Shown: piece after piece, positions 33,256-43,350 of the stretch | Layout of the letters: each line of letters starts with the position of its first letter | How positions within the stretch are numbered: position 1 is the first letter of the stretch | Assembly: GCF_022846615.1 (NCBI RefSeq) | Contig: NZ_AP025637.1 | Coordinates: forward strand, 2,381,001-2,445,000 | Length of the DNA stretch: 64,000 nucleotides | DNA from: Roseomonas fluvialis | GTDB lineage: Bacteria > Pseudomonadota > Alphaproteobacteria > Acetobacterales > Acetobacteraceae | Direction of reading: 5' to 3' | Made by a program: the position numbers and the translations under genes | The notes under the pieces: generated by a model | What the model saw: only the letters and a program-made list of their open reading frames with translations | The model's database searches: none | What the model was told of the DNA's origin: nothing

Positions 33256-33949
33256 GATCCGCGGCCTCGAGGCCGGCTACGGCCTGGTCACCGTGCTGCG
33301 CGGCGTGGACCTGTCCGTCCCCGCCGGACGCATCGTGGCGGTGCTGGGTGCGAATGGCGCTGGCAAGACCACGCTGAACATGACCATCAGCGGCCTGGTG
33401 AAGGCGCGCGCCGGGTCCATCACCTTCGAGGGGCAGCGCATCGACGGGCTCTCGCCGCCCGCCATCGCCGCGGCCGGGCTCGTGCATGTGCCGGAAGGCC
33501 GCAAGATCTTCCCGAACCTGAGCGTGCGGGAAAACCTCGACCTCGGCGCCTATCGCCGCGCGGGTGCCAACCGCGCGCGCAACATGGACCGCGTCTTCGA
33601 CACCTTCCCGCGCCTGCGCGAACGTGCGCGGCAATTCGCCGGCACGCTCTCTGGCGGGGAACAGCAGATGCTGGCGATCGGCCGGGGCATGATGGCGGAA
33701 CCGCGGCTGCTGATCCTCGACGAGCCCTCGCTCGGCCTCTCGCCGCTGCTGGTCGAGGAGATGTTCGCGCTGATCCGCCGCCTGCACGCCGATGGCCTGG
33801 CGATCATGCTGGTCGAGCAGAACGTGGCGCAGAGCCTCGATGTCGCGGATGACGCGCATGTTCTCGAGAACGGCGCCTTCGCCATCAGCGGCACGGCGGC
33901 GCAGGTGCGCGCCGACCCGCATCTGCAACGCACCTATCTGGGCCTGTGA
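33248..33949 (+). CDS. livF: Branched-chain amino-acid-type ABC transporter ATP-binding protein, LivF type
   Basis: A 233-residue ATPase with Walker A GANGAGKTT, the LivF marker VPEGRKIFPNLSVRENL, ABC signature LSGGEQQMLAIGRGMM and Walker B LLILDEPSLGLSP. It pairs with LivG. Its stop overlaps the ATG of the isochorismatase-fold gene (TGATG), so that gene is part of the transport operon. Confidence 0.92.
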   Translation: MLEIRGLEAGYGLVTVLRGVDLSVPAGRIVAVLGANGAGKTTLNMTISGLVKARAGSITFEGQRIDGLSPPAIAAAGLVHVPEGRKIFPNLSVRENLDLGAYRRAGANRARNMDRVFDTFPRLRERARQFAGTLSGGEQQMLAIGRGMMAEPRLLILDEPSLGLSPLLVEEMFALIRRLHADGLAIMLVEQNVAQSLDVADDAHVLENGAFAISGTAAQVRADPHLQRTYLGL

Positions 33950-34539
33950 TGCACGACACCACCGCGCTGCTGCTGTGCGACCTGCAGAACGACTTCATCC
34001 ATCCGGAGGGCGCCTATGGCCGTGCCGGCCAATCCGCACCGGCCATCGCCGCGCTGCCGGCGCGCCTGAAGCCGCTGGCCGATGCGCTGCGAGCGAAAGG
34101 CGGCTGGATCGTCTCCACGCATTTCACGCTGGTGCCGGGGAAGGGGGGCGAGCCCTTCATCGCCGACCACCTGCGCCAGATGCGCCCCTTCCTCGGCAAG
34201 GGCGATTTCGCGCCGGGATCCTGGGGTCATGCGTTGGTGGATGACCTCGCGCCGTCGGACCTGGCGGTGGAGAAGCTCGGCTACGACGCCTTCTGGAACA
34301 GCCGGCTGGAATGGGTGCTGCGGCGCGCCGGCGTGACGCGCCTGCAGGTCGCGGGCATCGTGACCAATGGCGGCGTCGCCTCCACCGTGCGCGGCGCGCA
34401 CGTGCGGGAATTCGACGTGACGCTGCTGGAAGACGGCTGTGCCGCCTTCGCGCCGGCGATCCACGACGCCGCCGTCGAGGGCCTGCGCCCCGTCGCAGCG
34501 GTCACCACCGTCGCGGATGCGCTCGCCGCGCTGAGCTGA
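33949..34539 (+). CDS. Isochorismatase-fold hydrolase with Gly in place of the nucleophilic Cys
   Basis: A 196-residue protein; ATG 33949 overlaps the livF stop, and a GTG one codon earlier is also possible. The fold is clear: D11 in LLLCDLQNDF and K109 in VEKLGYDAFWNS are the first two triad residues. In the usual TNVCV loop the sequence is TNGGV (139-143), so the cysteine nucleophile is G142. Amidase members of the family need that cysteine; true isochorismatases use a glycine there. It may therefore be an enol-ether or vinyl-ether hydrolase, or inactive. It sits between a Liv transporter and a molybdenum hydroxylase, which suggests catabolism of an imported cyclic compound. Confidence 0.85.
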   Translation: MHDTTALLLCDLQNDFIHPEGAYGRAGQSAPAIAALPARLKPLADALRAKGGWIVSTHFTLVPGKGGEPFIADHLRQMRPFLGKGDFAPGSWGHALVDDLAPSDLAVEKLGYDAFWNSRLEWVLRRAGVTRLQVAGIVTNGGVASTVRGAHVREFDVTLLEDGCAAFAPAIHDAAVEGLRPVAAVTTVADALAALS

Positions 34540-34602: not shown

Positions 34603-36906
34603 ATGGACAAGTTCGGCATCGGCCAGCCCGTGCGGCGGAAGGAAGACCTGCGCCTGCTGACCGGGCGCGGCACCTACACCGACGACATCGACAAGCCCGG
34701 CCAGGCCCATGCCGCCATCCTGCGCTCGCCACACGCCCATGCGCGCATCGTCTCGATGGATGTGACGGAGGCGCTGGCTGCGCCCGGCGTGCTGGCGGTG
34801 CTGACCGGCCATGACGCGGATGCCGACGGGATCGGCCTGCTGCCCGTGCATGTCGACGTGCCTGGCAAGGACAAGCCGCTGTTCTGCCCGCCGCGGCGCA
34901 TCCTGCAGACCGACCGTGTGCGCTACGTCGGCGACCCCGTCGCGCTGGTGGTGGCGGAGACCCGCGAACAGGCGCTGGATGCCTGCGAACTCATCGCCAT
35001 CGACTATGACATCCTGCCCAGCATCACCGAGACCGCCCGCGCACTCGATCCCGACGCGCCGGTGATCTGGGAGCAGAACGGCAGCAACCTCTGTGTCCAC
35101 TGGGACAGCGGCCGTGCGGAGCAGGCCGACGCCGCCTTCGCCACAGCGCATCGCACCGTCAGCGTGGAACTCGTGCAGAACCGCCTGGTCGGCAATCCGA
35201 TGGAACCGCGCGTCGCGATTGGCGAATGGGACGGCGAACGCTGGACGCTCACCTCGCCGACGCAAGGCGTGATCAAGGTCCGAGAGTCCCTCGCGAAATA
35301 CGCCTTCAAGGTGCCGCTCGAAAAGGTCCGCGTGATCTCCCCTGATGTCGGCGGCGGCTTCGGCTTGCGTGGCAAGCTGTTTCCGGAATCCGCGATGGTG
35401 CTCTGGGCCGCGCAGCGCCTCGGCCGGCCGGTGAAGTGGCGGGCCGGGCGCACCGAGACCTTCCTGTCCGACCCTCACGGCCGCGACCACGTCACCCAGG
35501 CTGACATGGCCTTCGATGCGAATGCGAAGATGACCGGCGTGCGCATCCGCACCACCGCGGCGATGGGCGCCTATCTGCTGGATTTCGGCCCACGCATCCC
35601 GACACTCGCGGGCGGGCGCATCAACGGCACGGTCTATGACATCCAGGCGCTGAACGTGCAGGTGCGCTGCGTCTTCACCAACACGGTATCCACCGACGCC
35701 TATCGCGGCGCGGGACGGCCGGAGACGGCCTATGTGCTGGAACGCCTGCTCGACCAGGGGGCCATCGCCTTCGGCATCGGGCGCGACGAGATCCGCCGGC
35801 GCAACTACGTGAAGCCCGAACAGATCCCCTACGCGAATGCCGCCGGCAACGTGATCGATTCCGGTCGCTTCGAGGAGACGCAGGAGATGGCCCTGCGCCT
35901 GGCCGACTGGTCAGGCTTCCAGCAGCGCCGCGCGGATGCCGCCGCACGCGGCAGGAAGCGCGGCATCGGGCTGGGCTATTTCATCGAGGCCTCCGGCGGC
36001 CAGCCCTTCGAATGGGCGCGCGTGGCCCTCACGCCCGAGGGCCGCGCGAAGCTGACTGTCGGCACATTCAGCCACGGCCAGGGCCACGAGACCGCCTATG
36101 CGCAGGTGCTGAGCGAGAAGCTCGGCATCCCCTACGACAGCATCGACCTGATCCAGGGCGATACGGAGGTCGTGCAGAAGGGTGCCGGCACGGGTGGATC
36201 GCGGTCGTCGCAAATGGGCGGCGTGGCGATCAGCCGCACCGCGACCCTTGTGCTGGACAAGGCCAGGCGCATCGCGGCCCATCTGCTGGAAGCCGGCGTG
36301 GCCGACATCGAATTCGCCGATGGCCGCTTCAGCGTGGCCGGCACCGACCTCTCGGTGGACTGGCCCGCCGTAGTCGCCGCCGCGCATGACCCGGCGCGCC
36401 TGCCGGACGGCGAAGCCCCTGGCCTCGACGAGAACCTCACCTACACCCGCGACACCGAGTGCAACTTCCCGAATGGCTGCCACGTGGCCGAGGTCGAGAT
36501 CGACCCCGACACCGGCGAGGTCGCGCTGGTCAACTACGCCGCGGTCGATGACGTCGGCGTGGTGATCAACCCGATGCTCGTGCACGGTCAGTGCCATGGC
36601 GGCATCATGTCCGGCATCGGCCAGGCCATGCTCGAGCACGCGCGCTACGACGACGAGAGCGGCCAGTTCCTCACCGCCACCTTCCAGGACTACTGCATGC
36701 CGCGCGCGAACGACGCGCCGGCGTTCAAGCTCGGCCTCAACATCGTGCCGAACCCGTCCAACGACCTCGGCGTGAAGGGCGCGGGGGAGGGTGGGGCCTG
36801 CGGCGCGCCGCCGGCGATCGTCTCGGCGGTGTGCGACGCGCTGGGTGTGTCGCACATCGACATGCCGCTCACGCCCGAGAGCGTCTGGCGCGCGCTCGCC
36901 CGCTAG
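34603..36906 (+). CDS. Molybdenum hydroxylase large subunit (xanthine dehydrogenase/CoxL family, form II)
   Basis: A 767-residue molybdopterin subunit starting MDKFGIGQPVRRKEDLRLL. It has the form II loop AYRGAGR (366-372) and the catalytic glutamate E729 in GVKGAGEGGACG. It is related to the 2.6-4.9-kb protein but clearly diverged. No FAD or 2Fe-2S subunit gene is next to it. It follows the Liv/isochorismatase genes by 63 bases, so hydroxylation of an imported heterocycle is plausible. Its stop TAG (36904-36906) lies in the terminal TAGAGCCG of an intergenic repeat. Confidence 0.9.
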   Translation: MDKFGIGQPVRRKEDLRLLTGRGTYTDDIDKPGQAHAAILRSPHAHARIVSMDVTEALAAPGVLAVLTGHDADADGIGLLPVHVDVPGKDKPLFCPPRRILQTDRVRYVGDPVALVVAETREQALDACELIAIDYDILPSITETARALDPDAPVIWEQNGSNLCVHWDSGRAEQADAAFATAHRTVSVELVQNRLVGNPMEPRVAIGEWDGERWTLTSPTQGVIKVRESLAKYAFKVPLEKVRVISPDVGGGFGLRGKLFPESAMVLWAAQRLGRPVKWRAGRTETFLSDPHGRDHVTQADMAFDANAKMTGVRIRTTAAMGAYLLDFGPRIPTLAGGRINGTVYDIQALNVQVRCVFTNTVSTDAYRGAGRPETAYVLERLLDQGAIAFGIGRDEIRRRNYVKPEQIPYANAAGNVIDSGRFEETQEMALRLADWSGFQQRRADAAARGRKRGIGLGYFIEASGGQPFEWARVALTPEGRAKLTVGTFSHGQGHETAYAQVLSEKLGIPYDSIDLIQGDTEVVQKGAGTGGSRSSQMGGVAISRTATLVLDKARRIAAHLLEAGVADIEFADGRFSVAGTDLSVDWPAVVAAAHDPARLPDGEAPGLDENLTYTRDTECNFPNGCHVAEVEIDPDTGEVALVNYAAVDDVGVVINPMLVHGQCHGGIMSGIGQAMLEHARYDDESGQFLTATFQDYCMPRANDAPAFKLGLNIVPNPSNDLGVKGAGEGGACGAPPAIVSAVCDALGVSHIDMPLTPESVWRALAR

Positions 36907-39246: not shown

Positions 39247-40014
39247 ATGGCGGTGGAATACGGTGCGGAAGGACTGCTCGGCGTGCTGACGCCGCAGGCC
39301 AACACGACGGTCGAGCCCGAACTCGGGATCCTGTTGCCGCCGCGCATGGCCATGCTGAATGCGCGCCTCACCAGCCCCAAGCCGACGATCGCGGCGCGCC
39401 TGGTGGACTATGTGGATGGCCTCGATGCCGCGGTCGCGCAATTCGCGAATGCGCCGCTGGGTGCGATCGCCTTCGCCTGCACCGGTGCGTCCTACCTGGT
39501 CGGTGCGGCGGCGGAGGACGCGGCGGTGGCGCGGATCGAGGCGCGCACGGGCGTGCCGTTCATCACCGCCGCGCGGGCGGTCTGCGATGCCTTCCAGGCG
39601 CTGGGCGCACGCCGCATCGGCTTGGTGTCGCCCTATCCGCTCGACCTCACGGAAGCCTCCGCGGCCTATTGGGCGTCGCGCGGCTTCACGGTGGGGCGCA
39701 TCGTGGCCGCGGCCGCACCGGACGCCGCATTCCACCCGATCTATGCCATGTCCGCCGGCAGCGCGGCCGAGGCGCTCGCCGGCATGACGGGCGCGGGCGT
39801 GGATGCGATCATCCTGCTCGGCACCGGCATGCCGACGCTCAAGCCGATCCTGGACAACCCGGCGGTGGACGGCGCGCCGGTCATCTCCTGCATGACGGCG
39901 CTGGGCTGGCGCAGCGTGACGGCGCTGTGCGGCGTGGCGCCCAATGGTGACACGCTGCGCTGCTGGATCGCCGGCGAAGGCTGGCGCGACCGCTACGCGC
40001 AACGCATGTGCTGA
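39247..40014 (+). CDS. Asp/Glu racemase superfamily protein, maleate cis-trans isomerase/arylmalonate decarboxylase-like
   Basis: A 255-residue protein starting MAVEYGAEGLLGVLTPQANT at 39247 with a GAGGGG site; the frame open to 38746 is a monooxygenase shadow. The two catalytic cysteines expected for maleate isomerase and Asp/Glu racemase are present at C78 (AFACTGASY) and C215 (VISCMTALG), one per half of the pseudo-symmetric fold. Maleate isomerase would produce fumarate from aromatic (for example nicotinate or gentisate) degradation, which fits the divergent FAD monooxygenase. Racemase or decarboxylase activity cannot be excluded. Confidence 0.85.
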   Translation: MAVEYGAEGLLGVLTPQANTTVEPELGILLPPRMAMLNARLTSPKPTIAARLVDYVDGLDAAVAQFANAPLGAIAFACTGASYLVGAAAEDAAVARIEARTGVPFITAARAVCDAFQALGARRIGLVSPYPLDLTEASAAYWASRGFTVGRIVAAAAPDAAFHPIYAMSAGSAAEALAGMTGAGVDAIILLGTGMPTLKPILDNPAVDGAPVISCMTALGWRSVTALCGVAPNGDTLRCWIAGEGWRDRYAQRMC

Positions 40015-40072: not shown

Positions 40073-41059
40073 CTACGGGCTGCGCGCCGGCGTCACGCCG
40101 ATCATCGAATCCCGCGTCACCAGCGTCGCGAGGCGCGCCTCGTCCCAGCCATCCGTGCCCGCCGGGCGTGCCGGCACCACTAGGTACCGCAACTCCGCAT
40201 TGCTGTCGTGCACGCGCAACTCCGTGCCCTCCGGCAGCACCGTGCCGAATTCCGCCAGCACGCCGCGCGGGTCGCGCACAGCCCGCGCACGATAGGCGCG
40301 CGATTTATACCAGGCCGGCGGGCGCCCCAGAACGCTGCGCGGATAGCAGGAGCACAGCGTGCACACGACCAGGTTGTGCAGTCGGTCGGTGTTGAACAGC
40401 GCCGTCAGAACCGTCTCGCCCCGCGCGAGGCCCAATTCCTCCACCGCGGACCCCGCATCTGCCGCCAGCCGCGCGGCGTAAGCCGCATCCGCCCATGCTT
40501 TCGCGACCACGCGCGCGCCGTTATGGGGGCCGCGGGCGTCCATGCGTTCGATCTCGGCGCGGATTTCCTCCGCCGTGACGATTCCGCGCGCCAGCAGCAG
40601 GTTGCGCAGCGCCATGCCGCGCAGCCGCAGCGGCGGGACCTCATCGAGGCCGGAATCATCATCCTCCTGGTAGGGATGGTCATCGTGATCGTGATCGTGG
40701 TCGTGGTGATGATGGCCGGCGGCCTCGCCCTCGATGCGGTGCGCACCCGTGGCGCGCAGTCGTGCCTCCTCGGCCTCGAGGTCCGAAAGCGTCACCACGC
40801 CCTTATCGATGATCAGCGATGAGGTCGCGTGGATCCAGCGCTGGTAGTAGGGCAGCGACCAGTACGTCTCGCCGTCGAGCTGTTCCTGCACGCGGCGGCT
40901 TTCATCGGTCGTGAAGAAATGCCGCTTGCGGTCGGCCAGCAGCATGCGCAGCGCGTCGGCTTCCTTTTCCCAATGCGCGGCCTGGTGGTCGTCCTCCTGC
41001 GCGATCGGCGCGTCGAAGCGGCCACCGGCATCGTGCGGGGCGTGGTCGGGGTGGGTCAT
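40073..41059 (-). CDS. Fused nitrile hydratase: beta-subunit N-domain, His-rich linker, cobalt-type alpha subunit
   Basis: A 328-residue protein starting at 41059 behind GGAGG. Residues about 28-105 resemble the helical N-terminal part of nitrile hydratase beta (HWEKEADALRMLL, WSLPYYQRWIHATSSLIIDKG). Residues 116-128 are a linker with eight histidines among aspartates. Residues about 145-328 are a complete alpha subunit with the metal claw VCTLCSC (C233, C236, C238); threonine in the second claw position marks cobalt enzymes. The beta C-terminal barrel is absent, and no separate beta or activator gene is near. It would hydrate nitriles to amides, or thiocyanate-like substrates. It is divergent from a Bug binding protein. 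Confidence 0.85.
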   Translation of the reverse strand: MTHPDHAPHDAGGRFDAPIAQEDDHQAAHWEKEADALRMLLADRKRHFFTTDESRRVQEQLDGETYWSLPYYQRWIHATSSLIIDKGVVTLSDLEAEEARLRATGAHRIEGEAAGHHHHDHDHDHDDHPYQEDDDSGLDEVPPLRLRGMALRNLLLARGIVTAEEIRAEIERMDARGPHNGARVVAKAWADAAYAARLAADAGSAVEELGLARGETVLTALFNTDRLHNLVVCTLCSCYPRSVLGRPPAWYKSRAYRARAVRDPRGVLAEFGTVLPEGTELRVHDSNAELRYLVVPARPAGTDGWDEARLATLVTRDSMIGVTPARSP

Positions 41060-41156
41060 GGCATCCTCCAGGGCGGCATGGTGCCAGCAGCGCCGCCATC
41101 TCGACAGGGGGCGCGCGCGCCAGCATCCTCGCGGGGCCAACCGGGAGAGACACACC

Positions 41157-42146
41157 ATGACCGATATGACCCGCCGCGGCGTGCTGGGGCTCGCCGGTGC
41201 TGCGGTCACTGCCGGCGCGGCGCGCGCGCAGCCCGCCTGGCCCAACCGCGACCTGCGTCTGGTCTGCCCCTTTCCACCGGGCGGCACGACCGACGTGGTA
41301 GCGCGCCTGATGGCGGCCGCGATGCGCGACCCGCTCGGCCGCACCATGGTGGTCGAGAACCAGCCGGGTGCGGGCAGCACGCTCGCGGCCGGTCGCTTCG
41401 CGCGCGAAGGGGACGACCACGGGCTGTTCCTCAGCCAGATCGCCTCACATGCCATCGGCCCGGCGCTGTATCGCAACCTGCCCTATGATCCCGAGGCCGA
41501 CTTCCGCGCCGTCACGCTGCTGGTGACCGTGCCCAACGTGCTGGTCGCCAATCCGCGCAAGGTGCCAGATGGCGACATCCGCGCCTTCCTGCGCGAGGCG
41601 CGCGCGAAGCCGAACGAACGCAATTTCGCGTCCGCCGGCAATGGCACCTCCACGCACCTGACCGGCGAGTTGATCGGCCAGCTGGCCGGCGCGCGCATCA
41701 CCCATGTGCCCTATCGCGGCGCCGGCCCCGCCATGACCGCGGTGATCGGCGGCGAGGTCGATACACTGATCGACAACCTGCCCACCGCGCTGCCGCAGAT
41801 CCGCGCCGGCACGGTGCGCGCGCTGGCCGTCACGTCGCGCACGCGCGTGCCGGACCTGCCCGATGTGCCGGCGCTGTCCGAACTCGGCGCCGAATTCGGC
41901 ATGGAGGGCTTCGAGGCGGAGGCCTGGTTCGGCCTGCACACGCACAAGACCGCGTCGGATGCCGTGGTCGCGCGCATGGCCGCGGCGGCGCAGGCGGCGC
42001 TCACCGACCCAGCCATGCGCCGCCAGCTCGCCGAACGCGGCACCACCCCGCGCGGCGGCCCGCCGGCCGACTACGCGGCGCTGGTCACGGCCGAGCGCGC
42101 GCGCTGGCTGCGCGTGGTCCGCGACGGCAATGTCCGCGCCGACTGA
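41157..42146 (+). CDS. Tripartite tricarboxylate transporter (Bug/TctC) solute-binding protein
   Basis: A 329-residue periplasmic protein starting MTDMTRRGVLGLAGAAVTAG at 41157; the earlier frame from 40911 overlaps nitrile hydratase on the other strand. The signal contains TRRGVLG (Tat-like). The Bug motifs CPFPPGGTTDVVARLMAAA and VENQPGAGSTLAAG follow. It is upstream of an RraA-like gene by 59 bases. This is the third Bug protein in the window without TctAB. Confidence 0.9.
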   Translation: MTDMTRRGVLGLAGAAVTAGAARAQPAWPNRDLRLVCPFPPGGTTDVVARLMAAAMRDPLGRTMVVENQPGAGSTLAAGRFAREGDDHGLFLSQIASHAIGPALYRNLPYDPEADFRAVTLLVTVPNVLVANPRKVPDGDIRAFLREARAKPNERNFASAGNGTSTHLTGELIGQLAGARITHVPYRGAGPAMTAVIGGEVDTLIDNLPTALPQIRAGTVRALAVTSRTRVPDLPDVPALSELGAEFGMEGFEAEAWFGLHTHKTASDAVVARMAAAAQAALTDPAMRRQLAERGTTPRGGPPADYAALVTAERARWLRVVRDGNVRAD

Positions 42147-42205: not shown

Positions 42206-42910
42206 ATGACCTATCCCTTCACTGCCGCGGATCTCGAGGCGCTGCGCCAGTGGGACACGCCCACCATCTGCAACGCGTTGGAAGTCGTCGCTCCCGCACG
42301 CCGTGGCTACGGCTTCACCGTGCGGCCGATGACCGCCGTCTTCCCGAAGCTGCCGCCGATCTGCGGCCTGGCGCGCACCGGCACGCAGCGCGCAGCCTTC
42401 CCCTCGGGCCGCAGCAAGGACGCCGACAAGGCCATGCGCATCGCCTGGTACACCTACGTCGCCGATGCCGCGCTGCCGACCGTGGTCTGCCTGCAGGACC
42501 TCGATGACACGCCCGGCGTCGGCGCCTTCTGGGGCGAGGTGAATTCCGCCGTGCACAAGGGCCTCGGCGCGCAGGGCGTTGTGACCAACGGGTCAGTGCG
42601 CGACCTCGACATGTTCGCCCCCGGCTTCCAGGGCATCGCGGGCGTGGTGAACCCCTCGCATGCCCATGTCCACATCGTCGCGGTGAACGTCGAGGTGACC
42701 ATCCACGGCATGCAGGTGAAGCACGACGACGTGGTGCATGCCGACCTGCACGGCGCGGTCGTCATCCCGCACGACGTGGTCACGAAGATTCCCGCCGCCG
42801 TCGACCTGCTGACGCGCAAGGAGAAGGTGATCCTCGACATGGCGCGTGCGCCTGGCTTCAACATCGATCGGCTGAAGGAAGCGCTGGCGCAGTCCGACGA
42901 CATCCACTGA
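42206..42910 (+). CDS. RraA-family protein (HMG/CHA aldolase or regulator-like)
   Basis: A 234-residue protein of the RraA/DlpA fold, with AFWGEVNSAVHKGLGAQG and VVTNGSVRDLDMF, where the RD pair positions the metal in class II pyruvate aldolases such as 4-hydroxy-4-methyl-2-oxoglutarate aldolase. Such proteins finish aromatic ring-cleavage pathways. Some relatives regulate RNase E, but the longer length and catabolic context favour an enzyme. It lies between a Bug protein and a thioesterase, all on the plus strand. Confidence 0.85.
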   Translation: MTYPFTAADLEALRQWDTPTICNALEVVAPARRGYGFTVRPMTAVFPKLPPICGLARTGTQRAAFPSGRSKDADKAMRIAWYTYVADAALPTVVCLQDLDDTPGVGAFWGEVNSAVHKGLGAQGVVTNGSVRDLDMFAPGFQGIAGVVNPSHAHVHIVAVNVEVTIHGMQVKHDDVVHADLHGAVVIPHDVVTKIPAAVDLLTRKEKVILDMARAPGFNIDRLKEALAQSDDIH

Positions 42911-42915
42911 GCCCA

Positions 42916-43350
42916 ATGCGCCGGCCGCTTTGCACCGTGCTGCCGGGGTGGGTGGACCACTACCGGCACATGAACCTCGCCTACTACCTTGTGGCCTTCG
43001 ACATCGCGACCGATGCGCTGTGGCCGGATCTGGGGCTGGGCGATGGCTTCCGTGACCGCGGCCTGGGGACCTTCGCGGCCGAGTCCTGGCAGGCCTACAA
43101 CCGCGAAGTGACCGAGGGCGCGCCGCTCGCCTTCGATAGCGAGGTGCTGTCCTTCGACGCCAAGCGCCTTCTGTGTCGTCACACCATGTTCCATGCCGCC
43201 GAAGGCTGGCAGGCCGCGGAGAACGAGGTCCTGTACCTGTGCGTGGACCTCACCGCGCGCCGCGTCGGCGCCTGGCCGGATGACGTGCTGTCGCGCTTGG
43301 AAAAGCGCGCGACGGGTGCTGCGGCGAAGCGGCTCGCCCTGAAGCGCTGA
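42916..43350 (+). CDS. Hotdog-fold acyl-CoA thioesterase
   Basis: A 144-residue single-hotdog protein starting 5 bases after the RraA stop. The GWVDHYRHMNLAYYLVAFD region matches the 4-hydroxybenzoyl-CoA/carnitine-type thioesterase signature, with an H-M-N active-site segment. It would hydrolyse an acyl-CoA made in the catabolic steps around it. Codon use and spacing fit co-transcription with the RraA-like and Bug genes. Confidence 0.85.
   Translation: MRRPLCTVLPGWVDHYRHMNLAYYLVAFDIATDALWPDLGLGDGFRDRGLGTFAAESWQAYNREVTEGAPLAFDSEVLSFDAKRLLCRHTMFHAAEGWQAAENEVLYLCVDLTARRVGAWPDDVLSRLEKRATGAAAKRLALKR

Follow-up and report, generated by a model that had tools for sequence, protein, structure and literature searches.

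The question raised by this locus is whether a nitrile hydratase (NHase) can dispense with the C-terminal barrel of its beta subunit (betaC). NHases are industrial catalysts. Whether their mechanism requires the barrel, the second active-site arginine and an activator protein can be tested directly on a natural, conserved form that has no barrel. The gene concerned lies in a 64,000-nucleotide stretch of Roseomonas fluvialis DNA (hereafter the window), which sits in a single 5.48 Mb contig, and it joins the N-terminal domain of the beta subunit (betaN) to an alpha subunit. The answer that we favor, at roughly even probability, is that it encodes a betaC-less, self-chaperoned, single-chain cobalt NHase in a conserved, catabolic-looking locus.

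The gene occupies 40073..41059 on the minus strand with the stop codon counted in (ATG at 41059, stop at 40073–40075) and encodes 328 amino acids. A GGAGG on the same strand (41065..41069), five bases upstream of the ATG, reads as a probable ribosome-binding site. The further parts of the gene are likewise given on the minus strand. The NHase beta N-domain PF21006 covers residues 7–107 (40739..41041; 68.1 bits), in agreement with structure matches, and includes an HDAGG arm (residues 9–13, 41021..41035), of which H9, D10, and G13 are invariant among fused relatives in a 69-row alignment. It is followed by the His-rich stretch HHHHDHDHDHDDH (residues 116–128, 40676..40714), with eight His and predicted disorder, and by the NHase alpha domain PF02979 (residues 147–323, 40091..40621; 253.4 bits against a threshold of 27.2), which contains the metal-binding motif VCTLCSC (residues 232–238, 40346..40366), presumably of the cobalt type because of its Thr. 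AlphaFold and Pfam evidence agree with this content of betaN and alpha domains. An earlier sequence-only reading had described one 328-residue frame with a beta-like N-domain at about 28–105, eight His in 116–128, and a full alpha subunit with VCTLCSC, all of which was confirmed, with the minus strand added as a correction. Its statement that the beta C-barrel is missing also held, as the Pfam profile search gave no match in the fused protein to PF02211, the domain that carries Arg157.

The protein misses the equivalog cut-off of TIGR01323 (241.3 vs. 249.85) and stays below that of TIGR03888 (56.4 vs. 152.2 bits). It was rejected as a complete NHase beta subunit, having the N-domain and lacking PF02211, and as a eukaryotic-type fusion of two complete subunits in one chain, betaC being absent. 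Assignment as an NHase activator was rejected because TIGR03889 is not among its NCBIfam matches and residue 55 is Arg and not Lys; assignment as thiocyanate hydrolase gamma failed on score (TIGR03887, 188 vs. a cut-off of 291.45).

In an alignment to 3qxe_B, R55 (40895..40897) and Y71 and W75 (Tyr71 to Trp75, 40835..40849) of the fusion map to beta-Arg52, beta-Tyr68, and beta-Trp72, which we take to be active-site residues of NHase beta. Near-identical sequences were removed ahead of counts and trees, and Arg then occupies the R55 position in 56 of 56 fused clusters, 37 of 37 three-gene and 17 of 17 two-gene NHases, and both unfused betaN–alpha pairs. Activator-like ORFs, a class of 14 ORFs in 11 clusters assigned by its position adjoining two-gene NHases, carry Lys there in 8 of 11 clusters and Arg in one, and the HD of their HDxGG arm is lost. 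The retained R55 speaks against a conventional activator; because three-gene betaN also has Arg, it does not speak against a chaperone resembling AnhD of Streptomyces canus. According to the accessible part of PMC4709657, two beta arginines bridge the oxidized cysteines in NHase. The second arginine, beta-Arg157, is a betaC residue and is missing from the fusion. The alpha part is approximately 50% identical to classical cobalt NHase alphas (structure matches). Nearly all alpha columns conserved in betaC-bearing NHases are kept in fused alphas, so that no lost betaC interface is visible; column 222 is the sole one among those listed to be clearly relaxed (E in 42 of 45 betaC-bearing alphas vs. 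F 14, E 8, Q 6, and A 3 of 31 fused alphas).

A separate betaC is encoded elsewhere in the same genome. Its only PF02211 match lies 1.86 Mb from the fusion in a second NHase, which consists of three adjacent minus-strand genes (G000:C1, approximately 560955–562122) in the order betaN (97 aa), betaC (97 aa), and alpha (193 aa), and this betaC has an Arg157 equivalent, R29 (by offset to the R157A mutant chain 9d6k_B). That a distant gene could supply the missing part, as had been proposed from the sequence, is supported by this finding. The same reading had named a conventional beta plus activator elsewhere, together with inactivity of this gene, as evidence against itself; a split beta does exist, but TIGR03889, the one activator family searched by profile, had no match in this genome, nor in the controls of that search. 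The profile itself works, with matches in 2 of 12 other genomes. The fusion and the three-gene NHase are approximately 56% identical in alpha and 39% in betaN, which leaves their cross-assembly uncertain.

The proposal that the linker is a special cobalt loader replacing the activator is not supported by comparison with free alpha subunits. The richest 15 residues ahead of the alpha domain hold 4–11 His in 22 of 22 fused proteins, and at least four His within 15 residues occur ahead of 41 of 42 three-gene and 22 of 23 two-gene alphas. The two unfused pairs have five and three His there, and the His-rich tail is found in two-gene loci with an activator-like ORF as well as in those without one. 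Since this stretch is common to free alphas, the linker looks, by sequence, like a tail inherited from the N terminus of free alpha, and the His-rich linker of a natural betaN–alpha fusion need not originate together with the fusion. The accessible text of the review PMC7193024 describes the (His)17 linker of Monosiga NHase as dispensable for metal incorporation, which together with the tails of free alphas leaves no special support for a linker that replaces an activator; a general cobalt-buffering role of the tail is possible. The one three-gene alpha with no His-rich stretch is that of R. fluvialis itself (L052, 7956–9123), which also forms a long branch on the alpha tree.

The fusion occurs in 23 of 35 genomes of the genus, including one (G006) whose gene is approximately 90% identical to that of the window; in four of the 23 (G009, G029, G030, and G031) the match is in pieces or cut. 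The 12 genomes with no fusion match include two (G017 and G027) from assemblies less than 90% complete. A class-wide draw of 387 genomes gave 161 with a match, at most five candidates per genome being scored, so that the fusion numbers there are a lower bound; near full-length among the class matches listed were those of R. fluvialis, G059 (two copies), and G217. All three genomes examined from the family of G059 carry a fused gene. One scan covered 31 named loci, of which 7 were fused without betaC and 24 had betaC near alpha. Unfused betaN and alpha with no betaC beside them were found in G217 (L086, 9006–9992), where a single in-frame TAG splits the two parts, and in G434 (L109, 9036–10200), where they lie in different frames; we read the G217 locus as a pair, a sequencing error being possible. 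No fused or pair locus examined has a betaC match. Elsewhere in these genomes PF02211 is widespread: it is present in 34 of 35 genus genomes and in G059, G217, G434, G435, and G436, and of the 28 genomes with a fusion or pair that were searched for it, 27 have it. The other alpha of the exception (G026) is cut off at a contig end, and help in trans is thus possible in every genome. In G030 the fused gene (C150, 5444–6410) matches in two overlapping frames, owing either to a frameshift or to faulty assembly.

Purifying selection acts on both domains, with dN/dS (NG86) of 0.14–0.40 for betaN and 0.04–0.31 for alpha in comparisons with nine of the relatives; the linker was too saturated for dN/dS in most of them. 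The alpha-domain tree took in part of the relatives as well (83 alphas), excluding P0108 and P0113 (218 and 236 aa; not fused) and two alphas cut at contig ends. In it, the 17 two-gene alphas all fall to one side of a branch with 100/100 support. A single clade of the 27 fused alphas was rejected (AU p 0.009), as was one of the fused alphas plus the two pairs (p 0.002), so the betaC-less form arose, or was given up, on more than one occasion. With its root unsure, the tree is compatible with betaC having been lost repeatedly as well as with its absence from early on.

In the window, the fused gene is divergent from a TctC-type solute receptor (41157..42146, plus strand) and convergent with a gene of the arylmalonate decarboxylase (AMDase)/Asp-Glu racemase family (39247..40014, plus). 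The latter is a frequent neighbor, as are an RraA/aldolase-like gene (42206..42910, plus) and a 4HBT_2 thioesterase-like gene (42916..43350, plus). Further away on the plus strand are an isochorismatase-family hydrolase, which may be an amidohydrolase (33946..34539), and a xanthine/CO dehydrogenase-type molybdenum large subunit (34603..36906). We examined 17 fused loci from Acetobacterales (the window, 14 same-genus genomes, L011 from Elioraea, and L012, which is filed as Asaia). A relative of the TctC receptor lies upstream and divergent in 16 of the 16 whose contig reaches there, with 66–92% identity to that of the window and, in L012, at a distance of approximately 870 bases; the contig of the 17th (G014) begins 207 bases ahead of the fused gene. 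Outside Acetobacterales the receptor was found in none of seven fused or pair loci. The isochorismatase-family hydrolase and a molybdenum hydroxylase are both near the fused gene in the window, L006, L091, and L092, and in G059 (L088) they are directly upstream of one fused copy. On the whole, the neighborhood resembles a catabolic locus that includes a nitrile step of its own.

Domain content, conservation, purifying selection, and the equivalents of Arg52, Tyr68, and Trp72 in a chain with neither barrel nor Arg157 are the observations from which the self-maturing minimal enzyme, ranked first here, is proposed. The betaN domain would dock on its own alpha domain, or on that of a partner, and would act there as a built-in maturation chaperone in cobalt insertion and cysteine oxidation. 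It may then stay in place and form the other wall of the active site, where R55, to judge from the alignment, would bind the oxidized cysteines, and the His-rich linker would be a leftover of the N-terminal tail of a free alpha. The enzyme may hydrate a nitrile handled by its neighborhood, namely the TctC receptor and the AMDase-like enzyme, in a pathway that in some loci could also involve the isochorismatase-type hydrolase and the molybdenum hydroxylase. The fusion corresponds, in covalent form, to the betaN/alpha pair of S. canus. In that system, according to the accessible part of PMC7329996, free betaN (AnhD) is a metal and subunit-swapping chaperone with no separate activator, the AnhD2A complex carries cobalt and hands its alpha to the apoenzyme, and betaN plus alpha without betaC (AnhDA) has 0.21–1.97% of full activity on acetamiprid, alpha alone having none. 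This low activity is the main fact against a minimal enzyme; the presence of betaC in 27 of 28 genomes, the conserved columns kept in fused alphas, and the absence of TctC outside Acetobacterales also count against it. The alpha subunit of ToyJ alone is reportedly sufficient for catalysis, in work by Nelp from 2014. Tentatively, we suggest a natural bacterial class of betaC-less NHases, reached more than once, in which an autonomous betaN–alpha chain matures its own cobalt center through the attached betaN as an intramolecular chaperone and uses one active-site arginine instead of two.

The explanation ranked second, which we consider possible though on balance unlikely, is that the fusion makes up two thirds of an ordinary NHase and relies on betaC supplied in trans by the three-gene operon, at a distance of 1.86 Mb. 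The single betaC gene of the genome does encode a separate protein with the Arg157 equivalent R29, fused alphas have kept nearly all conserved columns, and high activity of the S. canus NHase needs betaC (PMC7329996, accessible part). The co-occurrence in 34 of 35 genus genomes and in the five others named above points the same way but weighs little, as the 12 fusion-less genus genomes also have betaC; moreover, the moderate identity to the three-gene NHase makes cross-assembly uncertain, and betaC is missing from every fused or pair locus examined. More doubtful still is a role, ranked third, as a maturation factor, a frozen betaN–alpha mediator that is no enzyme and delivers cobalt to the three-gene NHase. 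Its composition resembles that of the AnhD2A mediator, whose betaN is of the Arg-bearing kind (37 of 37 three-gene betaN), and no TIGR03889 activator was found in the genome; in vitro, the alpha domain of an artificial fusion can receive cobalt from the alpha of another complex (PMC4709657, accessible part). However, 12 of 35 genus genomes have a three-gene NHase with no fusion match (two being assemblies less than 90% complete), the fused locus is far from the three-gene operon and has its own conserved neighbors, and a fused alpha cannot swap as a free subunit. The separate, conserved, catabolic-looking locus and a presence in the genus independent of the three-gene operon favor an enzyme.

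A decaying or non-hydratase derivative, either a pseudoenzyme or a protein of altered chemistry such as thiocyanate hydrolysis, seems very improbable. A whole domain is missing, the N-domain finds its best sequence match in the PDB in the beta subunit of thiocyanate hydrolase, and the G030 gene matches in overlapping frames, but selection is purifying, CTLCSC and R55 are intact, and the TIGR03887 score (188) is far from the cut-off of 291.

Among characterized systems, the NHase of S. canus (AnhD–AnhE–AnhA) resembles the fusion in its betaN and alpha parts, and its gene order of betaN–betaC–alpha with no activator gene (PMC7329996, accessible part) is that of the second NHase of R. fluvialis; the window differs in joining betaN to alpha and in having no betaC (AnhE) at the locus. 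Eukaryotic fusions (Monosiga and others) likewise have beta preceding alpha, in some with a His-rich stretch between, but carry both subunits (PMC2603476 and PMC3323583, accessible parts). The likeness to Monosiga drawn by the sequence-only reading therefore holds for the order and the His-rich stretch and not for the domain content, the Monosiga subunits being said to "seem complete" in the accessible part of PMC2603476. Classical cobalt NHases (P. putida and P. thermophila) share the metal motif and the beta-Arg52, Tyr68, and Trp72 equivalents, but their beta is a separate, full-length subunit that includes the barrel and Arg157, and P. putida has an activator. In Thiobacillus thioparus thiocyanate hydrolase, the homologues of betaN and betaC each form a subunit of their own, and the betaC homologue, unlike in the fusion, is present. 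The artificial P. putida fusion (Xia 2016) is a beta–alpha single chain as well, but is engineered, has a full beta, and still requires the activator.

The accessible text of Marron 2012 (PMC3323583) reports that the prokaryotic datasets of the time contained no beta–alpha NHase fusions, and by title and abstract start we found no paper on a natural bacterial betaN–alpha fusion in the literature searched, which was mostly without subscription papers. Databases already contain such proteins, which, where named among the best 120 of 8000 scored, are mostly called "nitrile hydratase" or its alpha subunit. The window provides a natural betaN–alpha fusion in bacteria, which could yield a compact one-gene catalyst.

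The genes flanking the molybdenum large subunit of the window (34603–36906) are isochorismatase-family and TctC-like by clustering, so that no small- or medium-subunit gene is directly adjacent to it. In three loci (L110, L111, and L112) molybdenum hydroxylase large-subunit genes lie approximately 7 kb or less from three-gene NHase operons; in four more viewed the same way (L013, L014, L035, and L052) none lies there. A molybdenum hydroxylase near an NHase is a feature common to these three-gene loci (L110–L112) and some fused loci.
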